Assembly: GCA_001247695.2 (NCBI GenBank)
Contig: LGRX02003626.1
Coordinates: 1 to 64,000, forward strand
DNA: 64,000 bases
Reading direction: 5' to 3'
From: Cymbomonas tetramitiformis
Taxonomy: Eukaryota > Chlorophyta > Pyramimonadophyceae > Pyramimonadales > Pyramimonadaceae
Shown: positions 31,842 through 62,969 of the stretch, piece by piece
Numbering within the stretch: position 1 is the stretch's first letter
Layout: every line of letters starts with the position of its first letter
Made by a program: the position numbers and the translations under genes
The notes under the pieces: generated by a model
What the model was told of the DNA's origin: nothing
Seen by the model: only the letters and a program-made list of their open reading frames with translations
The model's database searches: none

Positions 31842-31891
31842 AGTCTACGGTCTATGGTCTACAGTTTCTATAAAGATATTATATACAAATG
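31842..31891 (+). promoter_or_regulatory. Promoter of the C5 methyltransferase gene
   Basis: GTCTACGGTCTATGGTCTAC followed by AG and TTTCTATAAAGATATTATAT and ACAAATG. Identical in its last 40 bases to the promoter at 31503-31547; carries one more copy of the GTCTAYGG iteration. Confidence 0.7.
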
Positions 31892-34983: not shown

Positions 34984-35030
34984 GTTTGTATTATACTCGT
35001 TAGATATCGAGTCTTTAAGTGGATTATTTG
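34984..35030 (-). promoter_or_regulatory. Minus-strand promoter box (AAATAATCCACTTAAAGAC) before TVpol-helicase
   Basis: On the minus strand AAATAATCCACTTAAAGAC (35011-35029) lies 27 bases before ATG 34983. The same box occurs before the genes starting at 31419 (31478-31497), 28782 (28819-28840, one mismatch) and 27973 (27992-28008). Its position means the first 24 codons of the longest helicase frame are promoter rather than coding. A related GGTCTTTAAGTG stretch is at 37318. Confidence 0.6.
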
Positions 35031-35055
35031 CGTTATCACTCTCGAAACACTCCAT

Positions 35056-35314
35056 AGTGTACGTTAGATATTATTCAATGAACCCATGACGCAAAGTGGG
35101 TCTAAAAAATATTTTCTGAGTCTGAAAAGCCAAAAACGCACTATTACAGGGCCCGATTTCAGATCGCAGACCCCCTTGGACAGTGGGTCGTGGGTCGTGG
35201 GTCGACGGTTTCAGATTAAAGTTTTCTGTGATCGTTCGATTAAATGATATTGGGGAAAAAATCATAGATTTGTCCCCCCCTTTCAAAAATCGCCTGGTGT
35301 CCATACTTAAGATG
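35056..35314. other. Right flank of the PLV block
   Basis: No reading frame. Contains GGGTCGTGGGTCGTGGGTCG (35184-35203), a heptamer iteration resembling the GTCTAYGG repeats in layout. Confidence 0.4.
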
Positions 35315-46137: not shown

Positions 46138-46800
46138 ATCTTTTTCGGGCTTCTGGCGTCTAGCGGTATAGTTTCTGTTTCCCCATCATACATCCCGGAC
46201 GCCATGCATGCCATATTACTTTGACTATTGAAACCCGCATAAAAAAGTCGTAGCGTGAAATATTTCAAGTTGACAATGCGTGACAAATATAAAAAACAGT
46301 GATGAGCTCAAGGGCTACGAAAGGAAATCAAGGAGCTCTCGGGCTCGAAGGAAATCATGGCGGGAAGAGGATGGTTGGTCGCAGAGATGAACTACCACGC
46401 GCCACCTACCACAACGAAAGCGAAACCTGACGAAAGCGTTAGCATGCAATTCAAATACAGTAACAAACTTTTACACCCAGGTCAGTGCGGAAAAAAGGCA
46501 CAAAGTGTAAATATGCACAAACCAGCAAAGAATGGGGCGGTATGGGGGGGCGCACTGCGGTGAACCCAACTGCGTTCTCAACCCAACTAGAAGCACATCG
46601 GTGCATGGGGCGCTGCCTAAAATCCTGGAAGCATAATGATTCGGGAAAAGAAAACTCCAAAATGGGGAATAGAAATGTCAATCTGTTTTTGGGGAATAGG
46701 TTTGTGACACATGCATATGCGTCTAAAATTTTGCGTTTAAATTTTTAATAAAGCGTTAAAATTTTCCCCCCACCCATCTGTTCACTTTCGTTTTGCAAAC

Positions 46801-47568
46801 ATGAAGAAGCCTCCGAAAAAGTACACTAGGGTGTGCCTTTCTTGCGATAATGGCGGGCGTCGTTGTACTAGACATGCCACGCGTGTTCACCGCACAAAGG
46901 AACACCCTTTCTTCCACTTAACCGCCTTAAACGGCACAGGGCTTGATACCTATGTCGAGAATTGTGGCTTTCGATTCAAGCATACAGAGTCGGTAAAGGT
47001 ATGGGAAAGTCAAGATAGGGACCGTACCCCTATTTGGGACTTTCAAAACGATTATGTGTATATAGAACACACGGAGGGTATGCCTTGGGGCAAGCTTGTT
47101 CCAAGTCGAGGGAACTTCAACTACCTACCTTGCCAACGACACTTGCTTACGGGCTCGTTTCCTCCATTTCATTACAATAACGTCGTCGCGAACTGGCAAA
47201 TGCAAGACATTATGCAGCCGTTCCTAAACGTGCTTATGTCGAAGCGTGCGTTCAACGCTCAGTCCCTATCCCGAGCTTTGTATTGGTTTTGCTTGCTTGC
47301 ATGCCGTGAGCATCGCAGTGCGCACTATTGTTGTGCGGGCTCGCAAATTACTATCCGGCAGAAAGGTACTACACTTTGCAAGCTTTGCAACTCTTGCGCT
47401 ACTATGATCTTAGCGCATGACAAGTTTGCCGCTCTTCGGTGTGAATGGTGTTCTATTAATACGGATACAGGAGTGAGTTCAACTAAGTTTTGTCGGGTAG
47501 ACTGTGGAGAGGGCTTGAGCCCGGAATACTTTGAAGACAACTTCTCCCCACGGATACTAGTTCTTTAG
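46801..47568 (+). CDS. Cys/His-rich protein of unknown function (copy A)
   Basis: 255 residues. N-terminal zinc-like cluster VCLSCDNGGRRCTRHATRVH (C-x2-C-x6-C-x2-H) and a C-terminal one (CKLCNSC, CEWC, CRVDC), separated by a mixed domain with FHLTALNGTGLDTY and QRHLLTGSFPPFHYN. Looks like a zinc-stabilised protein, possibly nucleic-acid binding; no known family recognised. It ends within, and convergent to, the dioxygenase-like gene (4-base overlap of the two 3' ends). Preceded by AT-rich DNA and a pyrimidine run, with no palindrome on this side. Confidence 0.65.
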   Translation: MKKPPKKYTRVCLSCDNGGRRCTRHATRVHRTKEHPFFHLTALNGTGLDTYVENCGFRFKHTESVKVWESQDRDRTPIWDFQNDYVYIEHTEGMPWGKLVPSRGNFNYLPCQRHLLTGSFPPFHYNNVVANWQMQDIMQPFLNVLMSKRAFNAQSLSRALYWFCLLACREHRSAHYCCAGSQITIRQKGTTLCKLCNSCATMILAHDKFAALRCEWCSINTDTGVSSTKFCRVDCGEGLSPEYFEDNFSPRILVL

Positions 47569-48230
47569 ATATAGGTAGGCGGCCAAAATATAGGATCTTC
47601 CTTCTTCTGTGTACGATCGTACATTTTGTAGAAGGTTACACAATAGCGCACTCCTATGAAGCCCGCAGAATTGATCCTATGCTTGCACCTTGCGTCCGAT
47701 TTAAACACTTTATGCGTGTCAAAAAAACACTTCACTTCGTCGTTGTACGGCGACTCTACCTCGTAAACGGCATTTTCAAACCTCCCTAGGAATATGTTGT
47801 ATTGGTGCGACACGCCGTGCTTGTCTGTGTGCCTACCAACCTCGCACATGTCGCTCATCATGCACGATACGTACAAACACCAATCCCCGTGGACGCCGTG
47901 GTAATTCGCATCAATACACTTCAATAGTTCCCCAGCTAGCATAAAGATCTCCTTCTTCCAATATGGGTTGCTCTTCGAAACTAGAGGGTCGTCTAGATAT
48001 ACGCCTCTGTTCTTGAAAAAAGGATGCTTCAAGCTAAACGCAGACGTCCCGTCCTTCTTCTTGGCGAATCCCCACTGTTGCGCAGTTCTCCCCATGTTGA
48101 ACCACCAACCAAGATTCCAACCCACCTTCGGAGCCGCGCCTTCTTCTTCATCGCGGTCGTCCTTTTTGTCGCGCCTCTCGATGCGCTTGCACGTTTCAGC
48201 ATGCAACACGGATTCTAGCTCTCCGCACAA
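47565..48230 (-). CDS. 2OG-Fe(II) dioxygenase-like protein (copy A)
   Basis: 221 residues. H134-T-D136, H184 (CKHRI) and R195 (VRYCVTFYK) form the expected metal and 2-oxoglutarate set; spacing (50 residues His to His, 11 His to Arg, 88 to the C-terminus) is identical to the PLV protein at 30436-31419. Other shared points: N-L-G-W/N-L-E-W, W-K-K/W-K-Q, and the ending D-P-I-x-x-x-P-x-Y. It lacks the beta-trefoil-like N-terminus of the PLV version. Likely an oxygenase acting on nucleic acid or protein; substrate unknown. Start at ATG 48230; the methyltransferase-like gene ends 23 bases upstream, in the same direction, so the two may be co-transcribed. Confidence 0.7.
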   Translation of the reverse strand: MCGELESVLHAETCKRIERRDKKDDRDEEEGAAPKVGWNLGWWFNMGRTAQQWGFAKKKDGTSAFSLKHPFFKNRGVYLDDPLVSKSNPYWKKEIFMLAGELLKCIDANYHGVHGDWCLYVSCMMSDMCEVGRHTDKHGVSHQYNIFLGRFENAVYEVESPYNDEVKCFFDTHKVFKSDARCKHRINSAGFIGVRYCVTFYKMYDRTQKKEDPIFWPPTYI

Positions 48231-48252
48231 CGCTTTGAACCTAGGCGAGTCG

Positions 48253-49566
48253 CTAATTGGAAGTCGCTTGCGCCTGTTTCCGCGATTCCCACAATATTAT
48301 CCCTCTAGTCAAGAAAGAGGCCACGGTAAAAGCTTCACCATCATACATATAAGGTGCGTTCCCCTTGCTTTCCATTCCCTTGTAAAGATGTGTGTGGAAC
48401 TCTTGGGCTTTTGTTGCTATCATTTCTTTCGCTTCTTCTGAGTTGAAAAAAACGTACCACGCTTCCACGTCTCCTAAGCTGCGGTCATACCCGGGGTATT
48501 TCGCAGGGGGTAACAAGATCTTCAAAGCTAACTTGTTAAAACATTCAGCTCTGTTATCTCCCACCACTGGTCGCTCGAAAGAATGCAACAATTTCAAGCA
48601 TACCACGGACGCCTTTGAATTAAGGCAAGCTGCTAATAACGGTTCGCACAAACCTCTAGCATAAGGTAAAGACGACACAATTACGTCAATCTTCGGTTTG
48701 AAAAGTTCCCAGTCTATTATTGCTAAATCAAGTTTTCTTATCCCTTTTGCAGGCTTGTGATCGCTCAGGAAAATTGTCTTGGGCTTGAACGCCACAAGAT
48801 TCTCGTAAACATATCGCGGTGCTTGTCCGCAGCAGAAATCAAATATCCTTAGGCCTTTGAAACTTTCTTTGAAAAAAGCTAGTAGTGGTGTGTATTGCCC
48901 TTTAAGAGTGGGATAAAAACTTGTAGACTTGCAACATTTGCGTGGTAAATCAATTGCAAATGGATAACTTGAAAGGCGCGCACACCTCGTTGATAGCGCA
49001 CTTCGCTTTCTTTTTGTTGGCATTTTGTGTGCCACTTCTGCCTCTACATCTTGCAACTCCTCATGCTCAAGCTCTATCTCTAGCTCTGGTTGGGGCATCT
49101 CCACATGCGTTGCCTCCTCCTCCGGTACTTCATCCAACTCTTGAGCCTCTGACACCTTCTCAGATATCGCGCATCTTGTTATCTTGTCTACCCACTTGTC
49201 GAATGCGAGAACTCGACTATGCTTGGCACAACATGTGCCAACACCACATGTCGTGCCAAGCGCGGCGCTCTCCACAGGGCGAACCATCAACAGTGCTTTG
49301 AACACCAATGATATTCCCCCCTGGTTAATCGAATACGTATCGTTGAAAATATACCCACAATACGCTTCGAAAATCGTTGTCAAGTCTACGCGTCCGTAGT
49401 CGTAGCCTGTTTTCCCATCCTTATACTTAACACCTTCTGGCCAAAACTCTGGCTTGCTATCGCCTAACTTCGCGTATGGTCCTAATAAACGCGCGAGTAC
49501 TTTGCGAAAGTCTTGTAGGCTAGGCTCTTTCGCATCGCATATATCGTTACACTTTTCTTTACGCAT
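48253..49566 (-). CDS. Adenine-type DNA methyltransferase-like protein (copy A)
   Basis: 437 residues. The C-terminal half has a Rossmann methyltransferase core: motif I FDFCCGQ (242-248), acidic loop FLSDH (266-270), and SSLPY (298-302) in the place of the D/N-P-P-Y/F catalytic motif of N6-adenine/N4-cytosine enzymes. The change from PP to LP is unusual. The N-terminal half holds an Asp/Glu-rich linker (residues 140-180) and Cys pairs (CGVGTCC, 107-113). Upstream, the divergent region to the 50262 gene carries three long palindromes and three 16-bp palindromes, presumably its regulatory region. Function as an active methyltransferase is uncertain because of the altered motif. Confidence 0.6.
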   Translation of the reverse strand: MRKEKCNDICDAKEPSLQDFRKVLARLLGPYAKLGDSKPEFWPEGVKYKDGKTGYDYGRVDLTTIFEAYCGYIFNDTYSINQGGISLVFKALLMVRPVESAALGTTCGVGTCCAKHSRVLAFDKWVDKITRCAISEKVSEAQELDEVPEEEATHVEMPQPELEIELEHEELQDVEAEVAHKMPTKRKRSALSTRCARLSSYPFAIDLPRKCCKSTSFYPTLKGQYTPLLAFFKESFKGLRIFDFCCGQAPRYVYENLVAFKPKTIFLSDHKPAKGIRKLDLAIIDWELFKPKIDVIVSSLPYARGLCEPLLAACLNSKASVVCLKLLHSFERPVVGDNRAECFNKLALKILLPPAKYPGYDRSLGDVEAWYVFFNSEEAKEMIATKAQEFHTHLYKGMESKGNAPYMYDGEAFTVASFLTRGIILWESRKQAQATSN

Positions 49567-49604
49567 ATTTTCGTTTCGATTTTATGTAGGAACGAACCTT
49601 ACTT

Positions 49605-49838
49605 TTCGCTAAGTATTGTTAGACGTGTTCCCAAAGTGACCAAAAACCGTTCGATTCCGAATCCAACGGGTTTTGGTCACTTTGGGAACACATCTGATAA
49701 TACTTAGCGAAGGTTTGCTGTACAGTATTTTCGCTAAGTATTATCAGATGTGTTCCCAAAGTGACCAAAACCCGTTCGATTCGGAATCGAACGGTTTTTG
49801 GTGACTTTGGGAACACGTCTAACAATACTTAGGGAAAA
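49605..49838. promoter_or_regulatory. Two long palindromes in divergent promoter (copy A)
   Basis: Two near-perfect palindromes of about 107-111 bp, 49605-49711 and 49728-49838, with arms TTTTCGCTAAGTATTRTYAG, then GTGTTCCCAAAGTGACCAAA, then AACCGTTCGATTC. They lie 40-270 bases upstream of the methyltransferase-like start. The same unit occurs nine times in the island. Confidence 0.85.
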
Positions 49839-49960
49839 TGACAGATAGGTCGAAGAGAATAGCGCGTGTTGTCACCATGCCGACTTCCTAACTCACATTA
49901 ACATCCCGAACCCCATACACCGTGCACGGTGTAGGCCCTCCCGAACGCAGCGCAGCCGCA

Positions 49961-50018
49961 ATTCACGGCCGTGAATCGGAAATTCACGGCCGTGAATCTG
50001 AAATTCACGCCCGTGAAT
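49961..50018. promoter_or_regulatory. Three ATTCACGGCCGTGAAT palindromes at 21-bp spacing
   Basis: 16-bp palindromes at 49961, 49982 and 50003 (the last with one mismatch), starts exactly 21 bp apart, i.e. two helical turns. Operator-like. In copy B the same array is at 60060-60117. Confidence 0.8.
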
Positions 50019-50060
50019 CTGAAAGTAAAGACTTACCAAAAAATATAGAGACGGGTACGG

Positions 50061-50175
50061 TATTTTCGCTAAGTATTATCAGATGTGTTCCCAAAGTGAC
50101 CAAAAACCGTTCGATTACGAATCCAACGGGTTTTGGTCACTTTGGGAACACGTCTGATAATACTTAGAGAAAATA
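50061..50175. promoter_or_regulatory. Long palindrome before the 50262 gene
   Basis: Same unit as at 49605; arms match except for a few bases near the centre. 87 bases before ATG 50262. Confidence 0.85.
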
Positions 50176-50261
50176 CGTAGAGATAATAATGGTTCGTTCT
50201 CATGGTAATAAACCCTACAAGGAAATATCGATAAATCTAGTCTTCACCCGCAAATAAAATA

Positions 50262-50786
50262 ATGAATCGAATAATAAATAGGGACGAGGATTATCAATCT
50301 TGCAGAGGCTACCTACCCGCCCCATACAATTGCATAGCCCTTTGGCAGAAGCACATCGTGGTGCGCGGGGAAGACGAGAACCCTACCAAGGATCCCCACT
50401 ATGGACTCACTCGCCCCAACAAGCGGTGCGAGTTGCATAAGGTCCTCATATGCATGGTGGAGTATGGAGAGGCTGGCGTGCAACCATTAGAGTTTCCTTT
50501 CGATTGGTTCCCAATGCTCGACCACTACGCTATCCTCAACCGCACGCAGGGTGCGTGGGTATGGTGCGAGGAGAGCGCAACCACTCGCATCGTTTTCCAC
50601 GACCATGGAAACGCCGAGGATGGGAAAATAAAATCGACAGATATCTTCACCTCCCTTGTGTCGTACAAGTTGTGCGCTAAGTGCGCTAAAACATGTCAAA
50701 GGATGGTGCAGCCTCTCGAGAGGCACGAGCGCAATGCAAGTTTGAATATTTATGAACGTTTGAACGTCGAGTTCGAGCTAATATAG
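50262..50786 (+). CDS. Cys-rich protein, paralogue of the 53150 gene
   Basis: 174 residues. Shares with the protein at 53150-53695: RC-x-x-HK-x-L near residue 53-60, a W-V-W-C motif (around 97-100), R-I/L-V-F, then C-A/S-K-C-A-x-x-C-Q (C-x2-C-x3-C) and the ending L-x-V-x-F-E-L. Conserved Cys suggests a zinc site. Not recognised otherwise. The start codon and first eight codons lie in direct repeat A, so copy B ends with a fragment of this gene. Confidence 0.6.
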   Translation: MNRIINRDEDYQSCRGYLPAPYNCIALWQKHIVVRGEDENPTKDPHYGLTRPNKRCELHKVLICMVEYGEAGVQPLEFPFDWFPMLDHYAILNRTQGAWVWCEESATTRIVFHDHGNAEDGKIKSTDIFTSLVSYKLCAKCAKTCQRMVQPLERHERNASLNIYERLNVEFELI

Positions 50787-50963
50787 AATATAACGAATTA
50801 GCACAGACTAGTAACGATAACGAGCAAGTAAAACAAATAATATTCGTTTGCAAAAACAAGTAATAATATGCATAAACTTGTAAATGTTCATGTTTATTCA
50901 CCTATTGAGCTAGTGTCCAAGCATGGCATACACGTCTTGAAAGTAAAGCATTTTGTAAGCCTA

Positions 50964-52208
50964 TTATGTACGCTTTCGCTTGGCTTGTTCCTTCCCTACG
51001 GGTCCCTTCGCGGCTTTGTCTAAGGCTTTCTCAACATCGCGTGCCAAAACCTTCAGGACTTTCTTATGCTCCTCGTCCACCGTGTTGGTGAGGTCTGTGC
51101 CCGCTAGAAAGTACTTCACGAACTCCTTCGTAACGAAGTCGAGATAACCCCAATGTAAGGCCGAGTTCACGGGGTTCAGCTGAACATCAGGGTCGTAGGA
51201 CGCCACGCCCTTCAACGCCAAGTTGGCGGAGAACACCACCCGGGGCGTGCCATCCGCGTTGGTCACCCCTTGGTGTACCCCTCCCACCACCGCGCAGTCG
51301 CCCAATCCCACTTTATCCTTTCCCCCAACGTTCGTCGCATACGCGTCGAGGGTTTCCTTCGAGAGCATGAGGGCTCGCTGCTCGTGGAATTGGACATCGC
51401 AGTTGAGTTGCAACCTCTCTTGCGTCGATTGGCCTAGGAGCTCAACCGACGCGTCGAAGGACGGTGTTGGTGCACAACACAACCTTGTTGGGGATGATGG
51501 GCCAAGGTAGGCCACAATGGCCAAGTGATGAGGGCGTTCGGTGAGAGGTTGGTTAAGTGGCTGGTCCAAGTGCCAAGGTTGCCACCCGGTAAGGGTGGAG
51601 AGGACCGTATTAGGCGCCCCCTGAATCTCCCGAACGAGATTGTCGTTGATTAAGAATGCTTGATTCTCGATTGTGTACTCCTTACGAAGATTTTCCATAA
51701 CCTTCGTTTCCAACTCGTGTACGAAGACGTTCAAGTGCTTTCGATCTTCGTCCGTGAGATATTGCTCGTAGAAGTCGGTCTGCACTTTCCCCCCCCCGTG
51801 TTTCGCGGACTCGTGAAACACCTCCAGCTTTCCTCCAGTGAGGGTTACCACCCCAGGAGGAAGATTTTTCCAGTCCGGGACCTTGTTCACGGCCTCCCTC
51901 CACATACACGAATACCGCCTTTCCAGATGTTCTCGCGACTCGTCTGGTAAAGACACCACGAAGGTGTTAGCGAAACCTATAGCTCGCGTACGGTCAAAGT
52001 CGTCCAAAAATGTTTCCTTGACGGCAGGCTCTTTCTTTTTTTGTTGACCGCTGCATTTTGCGCATCTCAACTCGCCCTTGCCTCTTTTAGATCGTGTGCA
52101 TGGTTTGCCCGCGTGGTCCATAGTCGAGGGATCTTGTCTACATTCAATAAGCTTTCCCATCTTGTTTAATTGGCCACATTCGCAACGTGAAGCTTGATTC
52201 GAAGCCAT
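50964..52208 (-). CDS. Second 2OG-Fe(II) dioxygenase-like protein with zinc-binding N-terminus
   Basis: 414 residues. N-terminal Cys set (CECGQ, C23, C37, CAKC at 49-52) resembles a zinc ribbon. The candidate oxygenase core has WQPWHLD (H213, D215), GDCAVVGGVHQG (H312) and P-R323 (11 residues after the distal His, the same as in the other two families here). The GD...H...R pattern is like PhyH/2OG enzymes. C-terminus is basic (KRKRT). Divergent from the 53150 gene across about 940 bases containing four long palindromes and five 16-bp palindromes. Probably an oxygenase on nucleic acid or chromatin; assignment rests on motif spacing only. Confidence 0.55.
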   Translation of the reverse strand: MASNQASRCECGQLNKMGKLIECRQDPSTMDHAGKPCTRSKRGKGELRCAKCSGQQKKKEPAVKETFLDDFDRTRAIGFANTFVVSLPDESREHLERRYSCMWREAVNKVPDWKNLPPGVVTLTGGKLEVFHESAKHGGGKVQTDFYEQYLTDEDRKHLNVFVHELETKVMENLRKEYTIENQAFLINDNLVREIQGAPNTVLSTLTGWQPWHLDQPLNQPLTERPHHLAIVAYLGPSSPTRLCCAPTPSFDASVELLGQSTQERLQLNCDVQFHEQRALMLSKETLDAYATNVGGKDKVGLGDCAVVGGVHQGVTNADGTPRVVFSANLALKGVASYDPDVQLNPVNSALHWGYLDFVTKEFVKYFLAGTDLTNTVDEEHKKVLKVLARDVEKALDKAAKGPVGKEQAKRKRT

Positions 52209-52282
52209 ATTTGTTTAAAGATCGGGTTAGGTATTAGGCTTTGGTAGGTTTACTAAACGAGGAAGTCGCTACACTAGCCCGG

Positions 52283-52341
52283 AATTCACGGCCGTGAATT
52301 TCAGATTCGCGGCCGTGAATATCAGATTCACGGCCGTGAAT
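52283..52341. promoter_or_regulatory. 16-bp palindrome array before the second dioxygenase gene
   Basis: ATTCACGGCCGTGAAT at 52283 and 52326 and a one-mismatch copy at 52305 (spacing 22 and 21 bp), 75 bases upstream of ATG 52208. Confidence 0.8.
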
Positions 52342-52380
52342 CGCGGGTGCAGGGCGTTCGGGAGGGGAGGGACCTGTATG

Positions 52381-52494
52381 GTATTTTCTCGAAGTATTAT
52401 CAGATGTGTTCCCAAAGTGACCAAAAACCGTTAGATTCGGAATCGAACGGTTTTTGGTCACTTTGGGAACACGTCGCAAAATACTTCGAGAAAA
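52381..52494. promoter_or_regulatory. Long palindrome
   Basis: Same family as 49605-49711; the end is changed to GCAAAATACTTCGAGAAAAT. Confidence 0.85.
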
Positions 52495-52641
52495 TGCCGA
52501 ACAAATTCACAGGTCGTCGGTCATAGCGCGTGTTCAGGTGTTGTCACCAAGCCCACATCAGCACTCACATAAACGTACGTAGCCCCTCCCGAACCCCATG
52601 CACCGTATGGTTTAGGCCTTTCCGAACGCAGTGCAGCCGCG

Positions 52642-52678
52642 ATTCACGGCCGTGAATCAGATATTCACGGCCGTGAAT
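52642..52678. promoter_or_regulatory. Two 16-bp palindromes, 21-bp spacing
   Basis: ATTCACGGCCGTGAAT at 52642 and 52663, facing the divergent gene pair at 52208 and 53150. Confidence 0.8.
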
Positions 52679-52720
52679 TTCGGGCTCAAGATAATACTCT
52701 ATACTGAAAAGACTTGTACG

Positions 52721-53084
52721 GTATTTTCTCTAGGTATTATCAGATGTGTTCCCAAAGTGACCAAAAACCGTTCGATTCGGAATCTAACGGTTTTTGGTCA
52801 CTTTGGGAACACATCTGATAATACTAAGCGAAAATACCATACAGTATTTTCTCTAGGTATTATCAGATGTGTTTCCAAAGTGACAAAAAACCGTTCGATT
52901 CGGAATCGAACGGTTTTTGGTCACTTCGGGAACACATCTGATAATACTTAGAGAAAATACCATACAGTATTTTCTCTAGGTATTATCAGATGTGTTCCCA
53001 AAGTGACAAAATACCGTTAGATTCGGAATCGAACGGTTTTTGGTCACTTTGGGAACACATCTGATAATACCTAGAGAAAATACC
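52721..53084. promoter_or_regulatory. Three consecutive long palindromes before the 53150 gene
   Basis: 52721-52836, 52844-52960 and 52967-53084, each a near-perfect palindrome of about 115 bp centred on GATTCGGAATC-like sequence. The last ends 65 bases before ATG 53150. Confidence 0.85.
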
Positions 53085-53149
53085 GTACCCGTCTTGTAAA
53101 TTTACCGTAACAACTTGAGGTAATTTATCATATTAAACGCAACAAAAAA

Positions 53150-53695
53150 ATGGCCGCAACCGTGGAGTGCACCCCTTGCAACTTTCGTAGAGCGAAAAAG
53201 GACGAAGAACATCTTATAGAAGCTGGGACATATTGGCTTGGGTTGGGCGACGGCCCGTACCCGCCTCTACAAGATCCACACGCGTACCAATGTTTGACGC
53301 GCGTTTCGGAGCGGTGCCAAGTGCATAAGGCACTTGTGAAAATGAAGGAATACGGGGAAGAGGATCAAGTGGAAGAATTCGCATCGCCTTGGCGTATTTT
53401 ATCGATGCTTGGACCCCGTCCCGAAAGGCAAAGCAAGTTGGAAAATTATTGGGTGTGGTGCAACGAGATCGCAAGCATGCGACTCGTTTTCCTCGAGACG
53501 TATTTAGGCGTGAACACTGAGTACAAGGGAATTCGGAACTATAACGGGCTTGTTGAAAAATACAAGTCTTTTCACGTGTGTAGCAAGTGCGCGCGGCTAT
53601 GCCAAAACCTATGTCGTGGTTTGGAGAAGCCATCTTTACGCTCTGGACGCCAAGGGCCTCAAGACCTTTTGACGGTCTCTTTCGAGTTGTTGTGA
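53150..53695 (+). CDS. Cys-rich protein, paralogue of the 50262 gene
   Basis: 181 residues. N-terminal CTPC, then the shared RCQVHKALVKMKEYGE, W-V-W-C-N-E and CSKCARLC blocks and a C-terminal LTVSFELL. The conserved core implies a common fold with zinc-binding Cys. Unknown function. Its promoter has the three tandem long palindromes. Confidence 0.6.
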   Translation: MAATVECTPCNFRRAKKDEEHLIEAGTYWLGLGDGPYPPLQDPHAYQCLTRVSERCQVHKALVKMKEYGEEDQVEEFASPWRILSMLGPRPERQSKLENYWVWCNEIASMRLVFLETYLGVNTEYKGIRNYNGLVEKYKSFHVCSKCARLCQNLCRGLEKPSLRSGRQGPQDLLTVSFELL

Positions 53696-53801
53696 AAGAA
53701 GCACAATGCAATTTTATGAACACAAGCTAGCAATAGAACACTTTGTAATATATGTATGTTAATACATGTTCATTCGCTATTAATTATATGTTTGCATGTG
53801 T

Positions 53802-53996
53802 CTACGGGTACAAGCAAACTGTGCACGTGAACAAGCCATCTGGAACTCGTGTGAGAGGAGGAATCATACAATGCATGTGGTACCCCTTGTCACAACCATC
53901 GCACACTAGCATTTTGCTTGCATAAGTCGCCTTAATGCATATCTCGCACTTCAAGGAGTGCGAGACGGTTTGGGAGCTCATGACCTCACGGTCCAT
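53802..53996 (-). CDS. PHD zinc finger (probably the C-terminus of the MULE protein)
   Basis: 64 codons: CEIC, CDGC, YHMHC and CTVC give the complete C4-H-C3 pattern of a PHD finger, a histone-tail reader. The frame upstream of its ATG is open for a further nine codons (acidic, ASDAIEEDA) and then stops, overlapping the end of the transposase frame (53978) by 19 bases. One base of frameshift near 54020-54030 would place the PHD in line with the transposase, so a fused MULE-PHD protein is likely to have existed. Confidence 0.65.
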   Translation of the reverse strand: MDREVMSSQTVSHSLKCEICIKATYASKMLVCDGCDKGYHMHCMIPPLTRVPDGLFTCTVCLYP

Positions 53997-54810
53997 TGCG
54001 TCCTCCTCAATAGCGTCACTTGCTTACGTTTTTTCCCCGCTAGCCTCTTCAACTTGCCGGTGATCTTGCCAAGGGGTTGTCGCCGAAGTGCAGAAGTAGG
54101 TTTCATTGGTCGGCCAGCTTTGGGAATCCGACCGATCAAGTCGAGCTGTTTTTCCAAAGGTGCTTTGAACTTTCCTTTGAATAACCCCACTGCCACCACG
54201 TCCGCGCACACACCACTTTCGTAGAACTCAGGGCAGTTGCACGTGTAGTGCACATAATCAGTCGGGGTTGTTGAAGCCTGCACAAGCACGAAGGAGGCAT
54301 ATAGGGAGACGAACTCGTTGAACGTCGTCACATTGGCGGGGGGGTTCACGGGATCACGGATAAGTGATAGGAACTCAGCGGCCATAACAAGTATTTCTTT
54401 CCGTTTGTCCGCGATGGTGACCGATTTCAGACTGTTGAAGGTCTTCATTGTAGGCAACACGAACACCATGGTCTCCTCGTCAGGTAGGTGGGGTAAGCGG
54501 GTCGCCTTGGTCATAAGTTCCATGACGTTGCTTTCCACCATGAGTAGGGCCTCCCGCCACATATCGTGTCGCACAATTGGACCAGTAGGCAAAGCATGTT
54601 CGCGCTCGAAAATAGTTTCGTTGCGAACATATTTCATAGCACTTTTATGAAACCGAGCCAGTTGTAGCTGTTTGCCGTTGCACAGAGCTGCCTTTGCCCA
54701 CCGATTGTTGGACTCGGGGCTATTTTGCGTGGAAGGTTTGCCAGGAGGCATCGTCCCTAGCACCCAACCACTCCATTGGCCCCACCAAAAGTCCACGAAC
54801 CACGAGCATA
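53978..54810 (-). CDS. MULE transposase, C-terminal part with SWIM-like finger
   Basis: Continuation of the transposase beyond the TA-target MITE. It shows WWGQWSGW and QNSPESNNRWAKA, the usual block after the DDE core of MULEs, and YTCNCPEFYESGVCADVVAV, which is a SWIM zinc finger (C-x-C-x(n)-C-x-H) with Asp at the His position. The basic tail KLKRLAGKKRKQ follows. The ATG at 54826 lies in the MITE and is not a genuine start. Ends with TGA at 53978, probably after a frameshift. Confidence 0.75.
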
Positions 54811-55074
54811 TCAAGGTATGGCTCACGCGAGGTCGACTTTACACAAAACTTCCGATTTTCTAGATCGTGAGATAAATGCGATTGAAGTGTGCACTTAAGT
54901 ATGGTTAAGTATGGGAGGTAACCGAGCGGTATCGGCCATAACTTTTCAATGCCTGGGTCAATTGTATACCCAGAGTGCGCAATATGTTTAGATTGGTTTA
55001 AGCGACATGTTTATCGAATAAAAATATTTTCCGAAGTTTTGTGTAAAGTCGACCTCGCGTAAGCCATACCTTGA
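54811..55074. mobile_element. 264-bp MITE in the MULE transposase, TA target
   Basis: Ends TCAAGGTATGGCTCACGCGA (left) and the inverse of the same with one mismatch (right); inverted repeats extend to about 40 bases. TA on both sides (54809-54810 and 55075-55076). Reading frames on both sides are in register across the TA, so the insertion is the only break here. Interior AT-rich, non-coding. Confidence 0.85.
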
Positions 55075-56697
55075 TATGTACTCCTCCTCCTCCTCGAAGG
55101 ACAACATCAACAACTTGAAGGCTTCGGTGCGCACAGAAGTGAGCGTGATACGGTGAACACCGGTAACACCGGTCTTGAAGCTCTCGACGTTATTAGCGTC
55201 GTTAAACATGCTAGACTTTTCGTTGAGTTTCATCTTGCAGTGTGCCCAACATATGCCTTGTTTGACGTCCTCCACCATTATGATTTCGTCGTTAATGGTT
55301 TCGTCAACACGGTCTCCCCGCTCTAGGTGATTGAAGACGACCTGAGCGGTTTTGGGTAGGGACAAGTTTGCATTGTAAAACGCTAGGGAGTGGTCAAGCG
55401 TGTGAAGCTTGGGTTGCCACAAAACGCCAAAGGAAATGCGTATCGCCCGAAGGACGAGAAAGTCCACGAGCTCAGAGGCGAAGGCGTCCTCGTGGGACTT
55501 CAAGGCCATGTAGCCCATTCTGAAACGTTTATCCAACCAGCAAGTACCGCCGAACTCAACGGGAAAGCCGTTCCAGTTGGTCTTGTAGGTGTCGTCCCGA
55601 GAGCGGTGGTCGCTAGTGGACAAAACTTGAAGTAGTTCCCAAGTGGTGTAGATCACGGTCCAGCGTTTTCGTTTTTGTTGAAGTTGGTAGTCCTCAACAA
55701 GTTGCTGGTAGTTGCGTAAAAGCGCCCGAAGGTTTAGCTTGCCCTTGTAGAAATGCGACTTTTTGGTACTCCACCCGTGACATGCCAAAAGATTGGACGC
55801 GAGCTCCAGGAAGTGGGAACAACCGTCTGACGCCAAGAGTTTTTCAAATTCTTGCTGTAGGCGCCGTTCACAAACGGCTGGGTCCTCCCTCCACTTGTCA
55901 TGCCGCCAAGCTACCATGATTTCCAAGCAAGAAGTTGCTTGGAAAATCAAGGGAGGTAAGTTGTTGCGTGAGTTATCCTTGTACGCAGGAACAACGGCGT
56001 AGCTTCCGTCTTGAAGAAGAACTTGGCCGTCAAACATGCACAACACCCCAGGGGTGTCGAGGTCCGTGATGGGGATGGCGAACAAGTTAGCTGTCACGCA
56101 CTCGTGCATGTAGTTACCGTAGGTTTTAATATCTTCAGTTTCCCAAATTCGGTACTTATTGTTGTAGGCATAATTGCAGATTGTTGCGTAAGACGGTACT
56201 GTCGGGTGGTTGAGGTCGTCCTTCATTTCTAGGAACACGGACTTTGGCCCCTTGCCCATCTTCAAGTGCGTGTCCAAATAGGTTTTTACTCGAGGGTTCA
56301 AGCCTTTGTTGAAGAATCCCGCGTGATCGTGTTCTCCACTCTGGAACAAGTCACAACAGTCGTCCGAGGTTTGCATGATTTTGAAAAACGCTTGACAACC
56401 GCTGGACTTGTACAACGAGCACTTAAACTTGTGTGTAATATTGCCCGTTTTCCTAGCTATGTGAGGTTTGTCCGCCTTGGAGAAGCCTTCAGAACACACC
56501 GCTGTAATCTTTTGGATACAGCTATCCCAAGATGAAGCACTTAGCAAGGCCACCCACTCTTTACGCTCGTGCGTCCGTGTCCGCTTGCGCGTAGGGAGTT
56601 CATCAATTTCATTCTCGGGATCGGAATCCTCATAAACTTCTCGTCCATCCTTCCCGGGGCTAGTGAACTGCAAATTTTCCTCCTCCTGGTCCTCCAT
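55075..56697 (-). CDS. MULE-type transposase, N-terminal and catalytic part
   Basis: Frame from ATG 56697, open to 54988 inside the MITE; true coding ends at the TA (55075). Residues 85-126 hold a WRKY-GCM1/FLYWCH-type finger (C93, C101, H123, H125). The DDE-like core ends with the typical HTLDHSLAFYNANLSLP and CWAHCKMKLNEK blocks (second Asp and the C-x2-H motif). An acidic N-terminus with PTRKRTRTHERK (36-47) may be a nuclear signal. With the C-terminal part it makes a near-complete transposase of the Mutator superfamily, broken by one MITE and a possible frameshift. Confidence 0.75.
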
Positions 56698-56790
56698 GGC
56701 TGTGAAGTGTTGGGGAGTGTGCTAGTCAAACTGCTTGTAAATTTTTTTGGCGCTCGATTGAATTAAGCATGGTTACATGTGACATATAAT

Positions 56791-56930
56791 CTATTCCCCA
56801 AAAACAGATCGAAATTTCTATTCCCCATTTTGGAGTTTTCTATTCCTCGATAACCTTTTTAGCATAATGATTCGGGAATAGAAAACTCCAAAATGGGGAA
56901 TAGAAATGTCAATCTGTTTTTGGGGAATAG
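56791..56930. repeat. 140-bp inverted repeat at the start of copy B
   Basis: CTATTCCCCAAAAACAGAT at 56791 is inverted at the right end (56930), with arms of about 60 bases through TCTATTCCCCATTTTGGAGT. Its midpoint (56860/56861) is the exact left limit of direct repeat B; copy A carries only the right arm. Confidence 0.85.
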
Positions 56931-57031
56931 GTTTGTGACACATGCATATGCGTCTAAAATTTTGCGTTTAAATTTTTAATAAAGCGTTAAAATTTCCCCC
57001 CCACCCATCTGTTCACTTTCGTTTTGCAAAC

Positions 57032-57799
57032 ATGAGGAAGCCTCCGAAAAAGTACACTAGGGTGTGCCTTTCTTGCGATAATGGCGGGCGTCGTTGTACT
57101 AGACATGCCACGCGTGTTCACCGCACAAAGGAACACCCTTTCTTCCACTTAACCGCCTTAAACGGCACAGGGCTTGATACCTATGTCGAGAATTGTGGCT
57201 TTCGATTCAAGCATACAGAGTCGGCAAAGGTATGGGAAAGTCAAGATAGGGACCGTACCCCTATTTGGGACTTTCAAAACGATTATGTGTATATAGAACA
57301 CACGGAGGGTATGTCTTGGGGCAAGCTTGTTCCAAGTCGAGGGAACTTCAACTACCTACCTTGCCAACGACACTTGCTTACGGGCTCGTTTCCTCCATTT
57401 CATTACAATAACGTCGTCGCGAACTGGCAAATGCAAGACATTATGCAGCCGTTCCTAAACGTGCTTATGTCGAAGCGTGCGTTCAACGCTCAGTCCCTAT
57501 CCCGAGCTTTGTATTGGTTTTGCTTGCTTGCATGCCGTGAGCATCGCAGTGCGCACTATTGTTGTGCGGGCTCGCAAATTACTATCCGGCAGAAAGGTAC
57601 TACACTTTGCAAGCTTTGCAACTCTTGCGCTACTATGATCTTAGCGCATGACAAGTTTGCCGCTCTTCGGTGTGAATGGTGTTCTATTAATACGGATACA
57701 GGAGTGAGTTCAACTAAGTTTTGTCGGGTAGACTGTGGAGAGGGCTTGAGCCCGGAATACTTTGAAGACAACTTCTCCCCACGGATACTAGTTCTTTAG
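57032..57799 (+). CDS. Cys/His-rich protein of unknown function (copy B)
   Basis: Duplicate of 46801-47568, 255 residues, differing at only three positions (for example K2R and P97S). Both copies are intact, so selection or very recent duplication keeps them open. Confidence 0.65.
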   Translation: MRKPPKKYTRVCLSCDNGGRRCTRHATRVHRTKEHPFFHLTALNGTGLDTYVENCGFRFKHTESAKVWESQDRDRTPIWDFQNDYVYIEHTEGMSWGKLVPSRGNFNYLPCQRHLLTGSFPPFHYNNVVANWQMQDIMQPFLNVLMSKRAFNAQSLSRALYWFCLLACREHRSAHYCCAGSQITIRQKGTTLCKLCNSCATMILAHDKFAALRCEWCSINTDTGVSSTKFCRVDCGEGLSPEYFEDNFSPRILVL

Positions 57800-58461
57800 A
57801 TATAGGTAGGCGGCCAAAATATAGGATCTTCCTTCTTCTGTGTACGATCGTACATTTTGTAGAAGGTTACACAATAGCGCACTCCTATGAAGCCCGCAGA
57901 ATTGATCCTATGCTTGCACCTTGCGTCCGATTTAAACACTTTATGCGTGTCAAAAAAACACTTCACTTCGTCGTTGTACGGCGACTCTACCTCGTAAACG
58001 GCATTTTCAAACCTCCCTAGGAATATGTTGTATTGGTGCGACACGTCGCGCTTGTCTGTGTGCCTACCAACCTCGCACATGTCGCTCATCATGCACGATA
58101 CGTACAAACACCAATCCCCGTGGACGCCGTGGTAATTCGCATCAATACACTTCAATAGTTCCCCAGCTAGCATAAAGATCTCCTTCTTCCAATATGGGTT
58201 GCTCTTCGAAACTAGAGGGTCGTCTAGATATACGCCTCTGTTCTTGAAAAAAGGATGCTTCAAGCTAAACGCAGACGTCCCGTCCTTCTTCTTGGCGAAT
58301 CCCCACTGTTGCGCAGTTCTCCCCATGTTGAACCACCAACCAAGATTCCAACCCACCTTCGGAGCCGCGCCTTCTTCTTCATCGCGGTCGTCCTTTTTGT
58401 CGCGCCTCTCGATGCGCTTGCACGTTTCAGCATGCAACACGGATTCTAGCTCTCCGCACAA
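57796..58461 (-). CDS. 2OG-Fe(II) dioxygenase-like protein (copy B)
   Basis: Duplicate of 47565-48230. The HxD, His and Arg set is preserved; the residues after HTDK differ (RD instead of HG). Intact. Confidence 0.7.
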   Translation of the reverse strand: MCGELESVLHAETCKRIERRDKKDDRDEEEGAAPKVGWNLGWWFNMGRTAQQWGFAKKKDGTSAFSLKHPFFKNRGVYLDDPLVSKSNPYWKKEIFMLAGELLKCIDANYHGVHGDWCLYVSCMMSDMCEVGRHTDKRDVSHQYNIFLGRFENAVYEVESPYNDEVKCFFDTHKVFKSDARCKHRINSAGFIGVRYCVTFYKMYDRTQKKEDPIFWPPTYI

Positions 58462-58483
58462 CGCTTTGAACCTAGGCGAGTCG

Positions 58484-59797
58484 CTAATTGGAAGTCGCGT
58501 GCGCCTGTTTCCGCGATTCCCACAATATTATCCCTCTAGTCAAGAAAGAGGCCACGGTAAAAGCTTCACCATCATACATATAAGGTGCGTTCCCCTTGCT
58601 TTCCATTCCCTTGTAAAGATGTGTGTGGAACTCTTGGGCTTTTGTTGCTATCATTTCTTTCGCTTCTTCTGAGTTGAAAAAAACGTACCACGCTTCCACG
58701 TCTCCTAAGCTGCGGTCATACCCGGGGTATTTCGCAGGGGGTAACAAGATCTTCAAAGCTAACTTGTTAAAACATTCAGCTCTGTTATCTCCCACCACTG
58801 GTCGCTCGAAAGAATGCAACAATTTCAAGCATACCACGGACGCCTTTGAATTAAGGCAAGCTGCTAATAACGGTTCGCACAAACCTCTAGCATAAGGTAA
58901 AGACGACACAATTACGTCAATCTTCGGTTTGAAAAGTTCCCAGTCTATTATTGCTAAATCAAGTTTTCTTATCCCTTTTGCAGGCTTGTGATCGCTCAGG
59001 AAAATTGTCTTGGGCTTGAACGCCACAAGATTCTCGTAAACATATCGCGGTGCTTGTCCGCAGCAGAAATCAAATATCCTTAGGCCTTTGAAACTTTCTT
59101 TGAAAAAAGCTAGTAGTGGTGTGTATTGCCCTTTAAGAGTGGGATAAAAACTTGTAGACTTGCAACATTTGCGTGGTAAATCAATTGCAAATGGATAACT
59201 TGAAAGGCGCGCACACCTCGTTGATAGCGCACTTCGCTTTCTTTTTGTTGGCATTTTGTGTGCCACTTCTGCCTCTACATCTTGCAACTCCTCATGCTCA
59301 AGCTCTATCTCTAGCTCTGGTTGGGGCATCTCCACATGCGTTGCCTCCTCCTCCGGTACTTCATCCAACTCTTGAGCCTCTGACACCTTCTCAGATATCG
59401 CGCATCTTGTTATCTTGTCTACCCACTTGTCGAATGCGAGAACTCGACTATGCTTGGCACAACATGTGCCAACACCACATGTCGTGCCAAGCGCGGCGCT
59501 CTCCACAGGGCGAACCATCAACAGTGCTTTGAACACCAATGATATTCCCCCCTGGTTAATCGAATACGTATCGTTGAAAATATACCCACAATACGCTTCG
59601 AAAATCGTTGTCAAGTCTACGCGTCCGTAGTCGTAGCCTGTTTTCCCATCCTTATACTTAACACCTTCTGGCCAAAACTCTGGCTTGCTATCGCCTAACT
59701 TCGCGTATGGTCCTAATAAACGCGCGAGTACTTTGCGAAAATCTTGTAGGCTAGGCTCTTTCGCATCGCATATATCGTTACACTTTTCTTTACGCAT
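58484..59797 (-). CDS. Adenine-type DNA methyltransferase-like protein (copy B)
   Basis: Duplicate of 48253-49566, 437 residues, essentially identical (one difference near the C-terminus). The unusual SSLPY motif is the same in both copies, so it was present before duplication and is not a fresh lesion. Confidence 0.6.
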   Translation of the reverse strand: MRKEKCNDICDAKEPSLQDFRKVLARLLGPYAKLGDSKPEFWPEGVKYKDGKTGYDYGRVDLTTIFEAYCGYIFNDTYSINQGGISLVFKALLMVRPVESAALGTTCGVGTCCAKHSRVLAFDKWVDKITRCAISEKVSEAQELDEVPEEEATHVEMPQPELEIELEHEELQDVEAEVAHKMPTKRKRSALSTRCARLSSYPFAIDLPRKCCKSTSFYPTLKGQYTPLLAFFKESFKGLRIFDFCCGQAPRYVYENLVAFKPKTIFLSDHKPAKGIRKLDLAIIDWELFKPKIDVIVSSLPYARGLCEPLLAACLNSKASVVCLKLLHSFERPVVGDNRAECFNKLALKILLPPAKYPGYDRSLGDVEAWYVFFNSEEAKEMIATKAQEFHTHLYKGMESKGNAPYMYDGEAFTVASFLTRGIILWESRKQAHATSN

Positions 59798-59833
59798 ATT
59801 TTCGTTTCGATTTTATGTAGGAACGAACCTTAC

Positions 59834-59938
59834 TTTTCGCTAAGTATTGTTAGATGTGTTCCCAAAGTGACCAAAAACCGTTCGATTAGACGGTTTTTGG
59901 TCACTTTGGGAACACGTCTAACAATACTTAGAGAAAAT
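59834..59938. promoter_or_regulatory. Long palindrome (copy B), single shortened unit
   Basis: Corresponds to the two palindromes at 49605-49838 of copy A; one unit remains and its centre is shortened (TTCGATTAGACGG). Confidence 0.85.
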
Positions 59939-60059
59939 GCCAGATAGGTCGTCGAGAATAGCGCGTGTTGTCACCATGCCGACTTCCTAACTCACATTAA
60001 CATCCCGAACCCCATACACCGTGCACGGTGTAGGCCCTCCCGAACGCAGCGCAGCCGCA

Positions 60060-60117
60060 ATTCACGGCCGTGAATCGGAAATTCACGGCCGTGAATCTGA
60101 AATTCACGCCCGTGAAT
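60060..60117. promoter_or_regulatory. 16-bp palindrome array (copy B)
   Basis: Same three palindromes at 21-bp spacing as at 49961-50018. Confidence 0.8.
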
Positions 60118-60159
60118 CTGAAAGTAAAGACTTACCAAAAAATATAGAGACGGGTACGG

Positions 60160-60274
60160 TATTTTCGCTAAGTATTATCAGATGTGTTCCCAAAGTGACC
60201 AAAAACCGTTCGATTACGAATCCAACGGGTTTTGGTCACTTTGGGAACACGTCTGATAATACTTAGAGAAAATA
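60160..60274. promoter_or_regulatory. Long palindrome (copy B)
   Basis: Duplicate of 50061-50175. Confidence 0.85.
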
Positions 60275-60386
60275 CGTAGAGATAATAATGGTTCGTTCTC
60301 ATGGTAATAAACCCTACAAGGAAATATCGATAAATCTAGTCTTCACCCGCAAATAAAATAATGAATCGAATAATAAATAGGGACGA

Positions 60387-60735
60387 TTGCATGCGACAGA
60401 TGTCGGGTTGCATGCCACAGAGGCCAGGTTGCATGCGACAGAGGCCAGGTTGCATGCGACAGAGGCCAGGTTGCATGCGACAGATGTCGGGTTGCATGCC
60501 ACAGGGGCCAGGTTGCATGCGACAGAGGCCAGGTTGCATGCTACAGATGCTAGGTTGCATGCTACATACGCCAGGCTGCATGCCACGGAGGCCAGGTTGC
60601 ATGCTACAGATGTCTGGTTGCATGCTACAGAGGCCAGGTTGCATGCGACAGAGACCAGGTTGCATGCTACATATGCCAGGTTGCATGCTGGTGACGGGTG
60701 GTTGCATGCTGCAAGGGCCTTGTTGCATGTCGGTC
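60387..60735. repeat. 21-bp minisatellite, TTGCATGCGACAGAGGCCAGG type
   Basis: About 16 units of 21 bases, each starting TTGCATGC (written in pieces: TTGCATGCGACAGAGGCC then AGG). Begins at the exact end of direct repeat B. Several frames stay open because 21 is divisible by three. On the minus strand the core reads GCATGCAA, as in the arrays further right. Confidence 0.95.
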
Positions 60736-62085
60736 ACAGCTGTATGAAGAAATAATTGATGACAAGGCAGATTTCAGGAGAAGATCTGCAATGACAATAA
60801 TTATATTGAGGATCTGGTGGATTCCAGAAAAAGATCTGCAATGGCAATATCGTGATCTGCCTGATGATTGGTGGAGGAGTACCAGAATCAGGCATATATG
60901 TGCACATGATTGGTCGATGGCAGATGTCAATACAGGAATCCTGCTAGTGATTGTTAGAGAGCAACATGTTGAAAGGGAAGCTTGGAAAAGTGGACCTCAG
61001 TTAGTGTTGATCAAGAGAATGAATTAAGGACAAGTCTTACATGTTAGTGTTAGGCTGTATGCCAAGAGTGAACATAAGGATATATATGTATTAGGTTTGA
61101 GATCAGACATTATATCGGAAAAGTGATTGTAATTCTAGGCTAGAAGCCAGAGTTTGTCATGCAATAAAACAGTGGAATATAAGACTGTGAAGTTAATATT
61201 ACACACCAAAAACAGCAGAAAATATAAAAAGAAAGAAATAAAGAAAATAAGGAGGAAAATAAAGAAAAGAAATGTGTTTAGGTTATCAGGAGTGTGCCTG
61301 GTACAAATTGGTATTCAGATGTTGAATACGTTCTACGGACCTTTGGGATCTGCGAGTGGGATTTTGTGGATGGCGACTTTTGTGTTTGCGTTTTGAGCTG
61401 ACTCTGCTTGCGTTCGACGGCTCAAATTGCGCGCGTTACGTGCACTGAAAACACGGAAAAGTTTCGCTACGGGATCTTCTTTGTGAAGGGTTTGGTTGAG
61501 ATCTGCGTCGGATTGCTTTTTCTTAAGGCTCTGGGCGAGATTTGTGACTTGATCTTGAGAATGTCCGAAGCTGGTCCACTCCGACGGCTATAAAGCTGGC
61601 AAGATATGCGCGTAGACGTCTTTAGTGGACCCGCGTTCTCGCTTTTTGCTGGATGTTGTTCAGATGTTGCGGATGCTCAGATTGGTGATCTTGGATGCCG
61701 GCAGAGGCTTAAGTATGGGGGGGGAAAGTGAGCTCTTCTCAGTAACATAACTAAGCAAAGCCGCCGGAGGTTATTGTCAAAAAGTACAAATAAAAAGTAT
61801 CTTTTTAGTTTGTTAACAATCTGAGCAAGTTTGGGGCCAGATCTTGTATCCTCACCAGCTGCTAAAAATAGCCTATCAGCCTTAAGTATGGTGGAAGTAC
61901 CTCCCACCTTCTAGGGAAGTTCCTTATACCTTCTGGCTAAGTTCTCTACAGCTTTTGGCAGTATTTTGGCTCTACTGGACTGGTATTCTTGGAATTAATT
62001 TCTGGAAACGCCATACGACCATATTTGACACTGTCATAGTTGTCATATTGTCATAACTGTCATACGGTTGACCGACAGTTGACTT
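60736..62085. other. No recognised gene
   Basis: No frame with a domain. 61160-61275 is purine-rich (A/G) sequence. TTAAGTATGG occurs at 61708 and 61882. It might be the 5' LTR/leader of the gag-like element to the right; a boundary could not be found. Confidence 0.4.
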
Positions 62086-62930
62086 TTGATGTTTTCGTCT
62101 GGACCTTCGCCCCCTTCCACAACCGCCATGGACCCTTCCACCACCGCCTTCCCTCTGACCCCCTTAGATCCCTCTCCACCAACCGCTTCCACCGCACCGG
62201 GACCTTCGGGCCCTTCCACCACCACCTTCCCCTTGACCACCTCCGACCCCTCTCCACCGATCGCTTCCATCGCAAGGGTCAGTACTGGGCAGGCTGTCGA
62301 CGTTTATCAACCTGTTCCGGACGTGCCCTTCGGCGTGCCCATCAGCGCGCCCGTCAGCATGCAACCGGGCATGCAACCCGGCATGCAACCTGGCATGCAA
62401 CCTGCAACATATGCCAGGTGGCATGCAACCCAGCATGCCTCAGAGCCATTTTGTGCACGCCCCCTCTCAAACCTTCCCTTTTATGTTTCATCAACAAGAG
62501 GTCGGTTGGAGCGGCATGCAACAACATGCAACGGGCGTGCAGCCGCATGCAACCAGCATGCAACCGCATGCAACCAGCATGCAACCGCATGCAACCAGCA
62601 TGCAACCGCATGCAACCAACCGCATGCATGCTGCATGCTCCAGTATGCCCCAGACATGCCATATGCCCCCAGTAGGCCGTCTCCGCCTTTTGGAATGGCT
62701 CTCCACTATGCCACAGGCTCGCCAACCCATGCCCCAGGCGTGTTGACACATGCCCCATACACGCCCGCGCCGATGTCGACCACCTACGGGGATCCATGGA
62801 CACTACCCGCTTATTTTCCACCGCCTCCACCTCCGGTATATGGAGCTGACCCTGCGTCGGAGGCACGAGCTAGAGAATGGTGGGCAGCGCGAGAGCGCAT
62901 GGCGACTGCGGAGCGGGCGGTGGCGACTGA
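62086..62930 (+). pseudogene. Gag-like protein, N-terminal part, frame-shifted
   Basis: A Pro/Ser/Thr-rich start (frame from ATG 62086), then MQPG repeats from a GCATGCAACC array; from 62411 a second frame continues (SQTFPFMFHQQEVGWSG, then HATSMQP repeats) and near 62650 the first frame looks coding again (MSTTYGDPWTLPAYFPPPPP, then a charged helix ending near 62930). Repeat expansion in the GCATGCAAC array has probably disturbed the frame. The Pro-rich head with a helical tail resembles retroelement Gag. Confidence is low because no zinc knuckle is in the window. Confidence 0.4.
62356..62632. repeat. GCATGCAACC array, middle cluster
   Basis: GGCATGCAACC at 12-13 base spacing (62358-62402), then GCATGCAACCAGCATGCAAC-type units at 18 bases (62540-62620). 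Confidence 0.9.
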
Positions 62931-62969
62931 TATGAGAGTGGTCCCCAACGACTGTATCCGACACCGCCG

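Follow-up and report, generated by a model that had tools for sequence, protein, structure and literature searches.

RESULTS

Gene content and boundaries of the element

We have analyzed a 64,000-bp stretch of the genome of the green alga Cymbomonas tetramitiformis (contig LGRX02003626.1, positions 1 to 64,000; hereafter, the window), in which positions 46630..56860 are almost certainly a single transposon of the Mutator-like element (MULE) type, about 10.2 kb long and present in tens of copies. From left to right, the unit carries Cys0 (46801..47568, plus strand), a 255-aa Cys/His protein with conserved CxxC and CxxH pairs; 2OG-1 (47565..48095, minus strand), a 176-aa dioxygenase-like protein with the residues HxD...H...R; a 437-aa methyltransferase-like (MTase-like) protein (48253..49566, minus strand) with an FCCG motif and SSLPY in place of NPPY; Cys1 (50262..50786, plus strand), a 174-aa Cys/His protein; 2OG-2 (50964..52208, minus strand), a 414-aa dioxygenase-like protein with an N-terminal Cys cluster and HxD...H...R; Cys2 (53150..53695, plus strand; 181 aa); and the transposase gene (53802..56697, minus strand). 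Cys1 and Cys2 were paralogous (34% identity, E = 5e-21), as proposed in the initial annotation, whose open reading frames (ORFs), strands and near-identical repeat were also as described.

That annotation had interpreted the repeat as a block duplicated around a centre, within an island spanning 46630 to 60386. The starts of the two blocks are 10,231 bp apart, which is the exact length of 46630-56860, and the sequence at 46630 recurs in inverted form with its end at 56860. The window thus contains one full unit and the first 3.5 kb of another, arranged head-to-tail. The right "block" is the start of this partial second unit (56861..60386), truncated inside the start of Cys1, whereas unit 1 has inverted repeats at both of its ends (46644..46713, plus strand, and 56776..56846, minus strand; 90% identical). 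A duplication around a centre was excluded by these end repeats and by the genome copies described below, and the element boundaries were corrected accordingly. The second unit stops at 60386, where a 21-bp minisatellite starts; several GCATGC-bearing minisatellites with a 21-bp period lie to its right (60387-63784).

Genomic copies share the same ends

We have searched the C. tetramitiformis assembly (851.7 Mb, 25,745 contigs) with the left 3.7 kb of the unit. Among the 39 of 2,510 candidates that were scored, 23 places (window included) covered the query whole and 9 stopped at one point. Twenty-two copies were fetched, comprising 10 of the 22 other whole matches (the full-block copies), 4 shorter matches and 8 of the 9 in which the alignment ended at that point. 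Of the ten full-block copies, nine aligned with the unit from its first to its last base (unit positions 1 to 10231) and shared the ends GGTAGCATAATGA...CCTTTTTTCC; the exception (contig C19327) ended at unit position 8919. A copy of the element was also present on contig C13101.

The target site duplications measured 9 bp. Both ends could be read in 11 copies, with nine perfect duplications, one with a single mismatch and one copy with none. Two internally deleted copies (C1625 and C6803) kept both ends and perfect duplications. Terminal inverted repeats (~70 bp, 90% identity) and a 9-bp duplication, within the 8-11 bp range of MULEs, assign the element to this type. On C10161 and C22006, the 9 bases preceding the element on its left side are identical, and these two copies may represent haplotypes of a single site. 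The left end of the window copy is GGA (46627-46629) where other copies have the terminal GGT. The tandem joint (56855-56866) contains neither the terminal TCC, nor a target duplication, nor the following GGT; it may represent a circle-like joint, recombination or an assembly fault.

Eight fetched copies (contigs C6624, C19831, C10161, C3819, C2922, C21461, C22006 and C150; loci L029-L044), whose right ends lie outside the fetched DNA, constituted a long variant with an extra 4.4-5.8 kb at unit position 3374-3395, inside the first divergent spacer and within a palindrome array. This insert was mostly noncoding and partly tandem-repeated, the only ORFs in the two copies examined (100-aa limit) being of 109 and 255 aa. 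Since the insert is common to the eight copies, the long variant was probably amplified together with it.

The transposase carries a PHD finger

The transposase gene comprises a Cys/His N-terminal region, the residues D397, D463 and E595, a SWIM-like CxC...C pattern and a PHD finger. It was a single 874-aa ORF in 6 of the 10 other full-block copies and shorter or split in the remaining four. The window copy is broken twice, by a 264-bp insert (54811..55074) and by a frame break ahead of the PHD finger (53805..53996, minus strand), which therefore lies in a frame different from that of the rest of the protein. The insert has ~46-bp inverted ends and TA flanks, was private to the window copy among those fetched (missing from all ten full-block copies) and was read through by the relative P0018. 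It was also considered as an introner; this candidate was rejected, given that the relatives are without this stretch and that it has TA flanks, although GT...AG would allow in-frame splicing.

The PHD finger is certain, scoring above the Pfam cut-off in the window (PF00628, 1.4e-11). Among the six transposase relatives found (P0018-P0023), Pfam also detected it in P0019 and P0022, as well as in a diverged copy of the element (C20943, see below). It was not called in P0018, P0020 and P0021 (three of the five relatives scanned), whose gene models end early or differ. The initial annotation had named a MULE transposase with a SWIM domain. Pfam called neither domain, and PF10551 was not matched, in the window transposase, the relatives and the diverged copy scanned. 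Both putative assignments derive from conserved residues, D397, D463, E595 and CxxHC being invariant in five sequences (numbering of the first row of the transposase alignment), and from the name that one relative bears in UniRef. The transposase relative CYMTET_47465 (43% identity) and the 2OG-2 relative CYMTET_47469 (59%) are probably linked, because both are listed with the same contig figure of 180,702 bp.

Cargo genes are linked and recur in a diverged subfamily

Genome searches with 2OG-2 and with the MTase-like protein gave lower bounds for the copy number. There were at least 103 matches to 2OG-2, two of them with a stop (101 of 649 candidates scored), and at least 96 to the MTase-like protein, 24 of them with stops (96 of 1,244 scored). 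Of the 51 listed 2OG-2 loci with at least 86% identity (window included), 38 shared a contig with an MTase match, in the same order and strand in 38/38; this count omits two fragments from contigs that it already includes, and the 50 loci at 72-75%, whose MTase counterparts would not reach the MTase list. In 20 of the 51 closely related loci, 2OG-2 matched only from residue 138, beside a run of C (51789-51797), which could reflect a mutation hotspot or an assembly fault. Two protein relatives showed 99% identity, P0009 to 2OG-2 over 96% and P0006 in its 2OG-1 part. An origin of transposase and cargo as separate insertions, which the initial annotation had named as a refuting outcome, was excluded by the full-span copies and by the constant gene linkage, other genome copies having both between the same ends.

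Six of the seven genes recurred, with 44-87% identity, in a diverged subfamily copy (C20943, locus L049): transposase (44%), MTase (50%), Cys0 (54%), 2OG-1 (61%), 2OG-2 (75%) and Cys1 (87%). Cys2 was missing from its expected position in the fetched 9.3 kb, one side of which is cut by a contig end, and the middle pair Cys1/2OG-2 was inverted relative to the window. The claim of the initial annotation that a mobile MULE-type element holds this gene set was strongly supported by the ends that its copies share, the duplications of 9 bp, a copy number in the tens and the recurrence of six genes in a diverged subfamily copy.

The ratio of nonsynonymous to synonymous substitutions (dN/dS) between the window and C20943 was 0.28 for Cys1, 0.22 for 2OG-2 and 0.15 for Cys0, the latter with a nearly saturated dS of 2.35. 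Transposase, MTase and 2OG-1 were saturated at synonymous sites, with a pN of 0.26-0.35. The dS of Cys1 (0.20) and 2OG-2 (0.76) was far lower than that of the other genes, suggestive of a probable exchange of this pair between subfamilies, perhaps as a module across palindromes. Within the family, pN/pS was 0.20 for 2OG-1 (p = 4e-6), 0.38 for Cys0 (p = 0.0015) and 0.41 for the transposase (p = 0.0013); it was not clearly below 1 for MTase, Cys1, Cys2 and 2OG-2, and near 1 for the first three.

Palindrome arrays occupy the divergent spacers

Two spacers separate divergently oriented genes, spacer 1 (49567..50261) with 120-bp hairpins and 16-bp palindromes at a 21-bp period, and spacer 2 (52209..53149) with hairpins and 16-bp palindromes. 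With up to two mismatches, 11 palindromes were present in the window against 0.05 expected; unit 1 accounted for 8 of them and the second copy for 3, and they occurred in the window only in the two divergent spacers. With up to one mismatch, the window and the fetched loci L009-L049 together contained 162 palindromes, all of them in the 186,195 element-aligned bases (at least 60 bp aligned to the element or to the diverged copy); the remaining 120,145 bases had none. DNA folding of two 120-bp hairpins gave z values of about -16.7. Tandem arrays of 21 bp and 123 bp were found in the internal spacers, with none adjoining either end of unit 1, and the distance between MTase and 2OG-2 varied by ~21-bp steps among many copies (1381, 1401, 1422).

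The diverged copy C20943 retained seven exact palindromes and the hairpin core, while the spacer between the motifs gave no alignment. This persistence is weaker than it appears, because the adjacent 2OG-2 gene belongs to the less diverged portion of that copy. Palindromes were absent from three deleted copies, C1625, C3609 and C8256; a contig end cuts C8256. Confinement of the array motif ATTCACGGCCGTGAAT to the element family would support a dedicated target.

Fold and family assignments of the cargo enzymes

Conserved residues, including HxD...H...R in both dioxygenase-like families, and weak fold matches hint at the enzyme identities of the cargo. The family libraries Pfam, PHROGs and NCBIfam recognized neither the MTase-like nor the dioxygenase-like proteins, and Pfam gave no TET/JBP match to the latter. 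Sequence searches of the PDB with 2OG-1, MTase and 2OG-2 returned nothing useful, and scans of viral contigs with these three and with a virus-like 2OG protein confirmed no relative. Structure prediction, which the initial annotation had put forward as a check, gave poor models of both the MTase-like protein and 2OG-2 (predicted local distance difference test, pLDDT, 46-47). That of the MTase-like protein matched S-adenosylmethionine (SAM)-fold enzymes in Foldseek, under the tool's low-confidence warning, and that of 2OG-2 gave no useful match. The top MTase match was a putative archaeal RNA methyltransferase; METTL5, KsgA and Dim1 ranked with DNA enzymes, and M.TaqI and M.BseCI were among the tied best rows.

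Elsewhere in the window, a virus-like (Polinton-like) stretch (28856-35070) contains a D5-like helicase gene (32665-35070; PF19263 and PF08706 below cut-off) and a C5 cytosine methyltransferase gene (31874-32386; PF00145, 4e-9), the latter adjoining a dioxygenase-like gene (30436-31437). The product of this dioxygenase-like gene was 32% identical to 2OG-1, which suggests, from sequence comparison, that virus-like elements and the transposon have exchanged genes.

DISCUSSION

The element is a multi-gene Mutator-like DNA transposon in which a PHD-bearing transposase is accompanied by a recurring MTase-like protein, two dioxygenase-like proteins and two to three Cys/His proteins. As in the initial annotation, we infer from the predicted enzymes that the element may write and oxidize a base modification. 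Our preferred interpretation, for which the chances are about even or slightly less, is a local switching of marks at the element's own promoters that would shield it from silencing. It is favored because the layout recalls VANDAL/VANC and TET/JBP-bearing transposons, and because two prasinophytes are reported to have both 5-methylcytosine (5mC) and N6-methyladenine (6mA). In these two, Micromonas and Ostreococcus, and not in Cymbomonas, 5mC with enriched CpG and a permissive 6mA at active genes are described (PMC12695648).

Under such a mechanism, the transposase would bind the ends and move the unit, with its PHD finger recognizing histone tails in the chromatin of the donor or target. The palindrome arrays would be bound by one of the Cys/His proteins or by the N-terminal part of the MTase-like protein; the dioxygenases would oxidize host 5mC there and the MTase would add another mark, perhaps on adenine, so that the element promoters stay open. 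In its fullest form this would be a complete kit, with a permissive adenine mark written by the MTase, host cytosine methylation erased by two dioxygenases and both activities targeted by Cys/His proteins to promoter palindromes, one selfish element rewriting its local epigenome; we consider this full version unlikely.

Several observations weigh against mark switching. The catalytic motif of DNA N6-adenine methyltransferases is (N/D/S)PP(Y/F/W); the MTase-like protein lacks it, and the non-standard SSLPY is invariant in six aligned sequences. No confident dioxygenase fold was obtained for 2OG-2, the low confidence of its model (pLDDT 47.3) making matches meaningless according to the tool. Finally, a CpG decay test among 10 copies revealed no excess of CpG transitions.

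The strongest competing explanation is that proteins or RNA, and not DNA bases, are the substrates of the cargo enzymes (for example, through methylation and hydroxylation of histones or of the transposase), which would assist transposition or the takeover of the host instead of anti-silencing. The archaeal RNA methyltransferase at the top of the Foldseek ranking, and METTL5, KsgA and Dim1 alongside the DNA enzymes, would be compatible with it, and the PHD finger and Cys/His proteins indicate chromatin. The 2-oxoglutarate (2OG) fold is found in enzymes that modify proteins and in others that modify nucleic acids. The resemblance of 2OG-1 to a gene located beside a C5 cytosine methyltransferase favors DNA, however, and M.TaqI and M.BseCI also argue for it; we judge a protein or RNA target unlikely, with perhaps a quarter of the weight.

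Somewhat less probable is that the palindrome arrays have no regulatory role and are simply features of recombination or folding, as nested foldback repeats. The inversion of the middle block between subfamilies, the long-variant insertion inside an array and the ~21-bp steps in the MTase-to-2OG-2 distance are suggestive of such features. Nevertheless, within the window the arrays are restricted to the divergent spacers, and 16-mers have been preserved exactly in spacer DNA that otherwise gives no alignment.

A further proposal, which we find improbable, is that the modification protects the element DNA itself, as phage-like hypermodification against nucleases or as a mark of the excised form, rather than acting on transcription. 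MTase plus dioxygenase resembles the phage hypermodification sets described in PMC12730594, and 2OG-1 has a virus-like relative. Against this, no glycosyltransferase or later step was recognized among the scanned ORFs, most of which match no family, and the arrays sit in divergent spacers, not at the ends. Passive capture of host fragments, as in Pack-MULEs, is very improbable: MULEs often capture genes (PMC6446971) and pN/pS is near 1 for Cys1, Cys2 and MTase, but six genes are retained in a subfamily copy whose transposase is 44% identical, which argues against chance capture, as do purifying selection on several genes and the lack of internal stops in most of the listed matches (72/96 for MTase and 101/103 for 2OG-2).

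With regard to mark switching at the promoters, transposon cargo that pairs an MTase-like protein with two dioxygenase-like proteins and recurs across subfamilies of the element in a green alga would make self-protection by writer plus eraser testable. Nanopore reads of C. tetramitiformis were made for its genome paper (PMC10675990), so that suitable data for detecting marks specific to the arrays may already be available. The paper gives DNA transposons as totals and mentions DDE transposases in Polinton-like viruses; "MULE," "dioxygenase" and "methyl" are absent from its main text. Literature searches, which reached few subscription journals, returned no MULE with this gene set.

Among known systems, MULEs including Rehavkus share with the present element terminal inverted repeats, 9-bp target duplications and, probably, a DDE-type transposase, and Rehavkus also has a PHD finger in its transposase (PMC6446971). 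The alga's element differs from them in its six cargo genes, its palindrome arrays between divergent pairs and the lack of a Pfam MULE match. Rehavkus carries a minisatellite before the 3' terminal inverted repeat; none lies next to either end of unit 1, although 21-bp and 123-bp arrays occur in its internal spacers. The hosts given for Rehavkus are arthropods and annelids rather than a green alga, and we make no claim of Rehavkus membership for the element.

Fungi are already reported to have transposons with an epigenetic enzyme, and plant MULEs to encode an anti-silencing protein. The SET-bearing MuDR elements of oomycetes are likewise MULEs carrying a chromatin-modifying enzyme, with other enzyme classes and another host (PMC12730594). 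For the TET+ DNA transposons of fungi, the same paper proposes that a transposon-encoded dioxygenase counters silencing; here, two dioxygenase-like families occur with an MTase-like protein, and Pfam recognizes no TET/JBP. In Arabidopsis, methylation loss is induced by VANC, which attaches to tandem motifs within the noncoding DNA of MULEs, and VANDAL MULEs resemble the present element in their short tandem noncoding motifs with varying repeat number (PMC5735166); the present element differs in encoding enzyme-like proteins. The likeness to VANC/VANDAL or to TET+ transposons would concern the proposed way of working rather than an established membership in either group.

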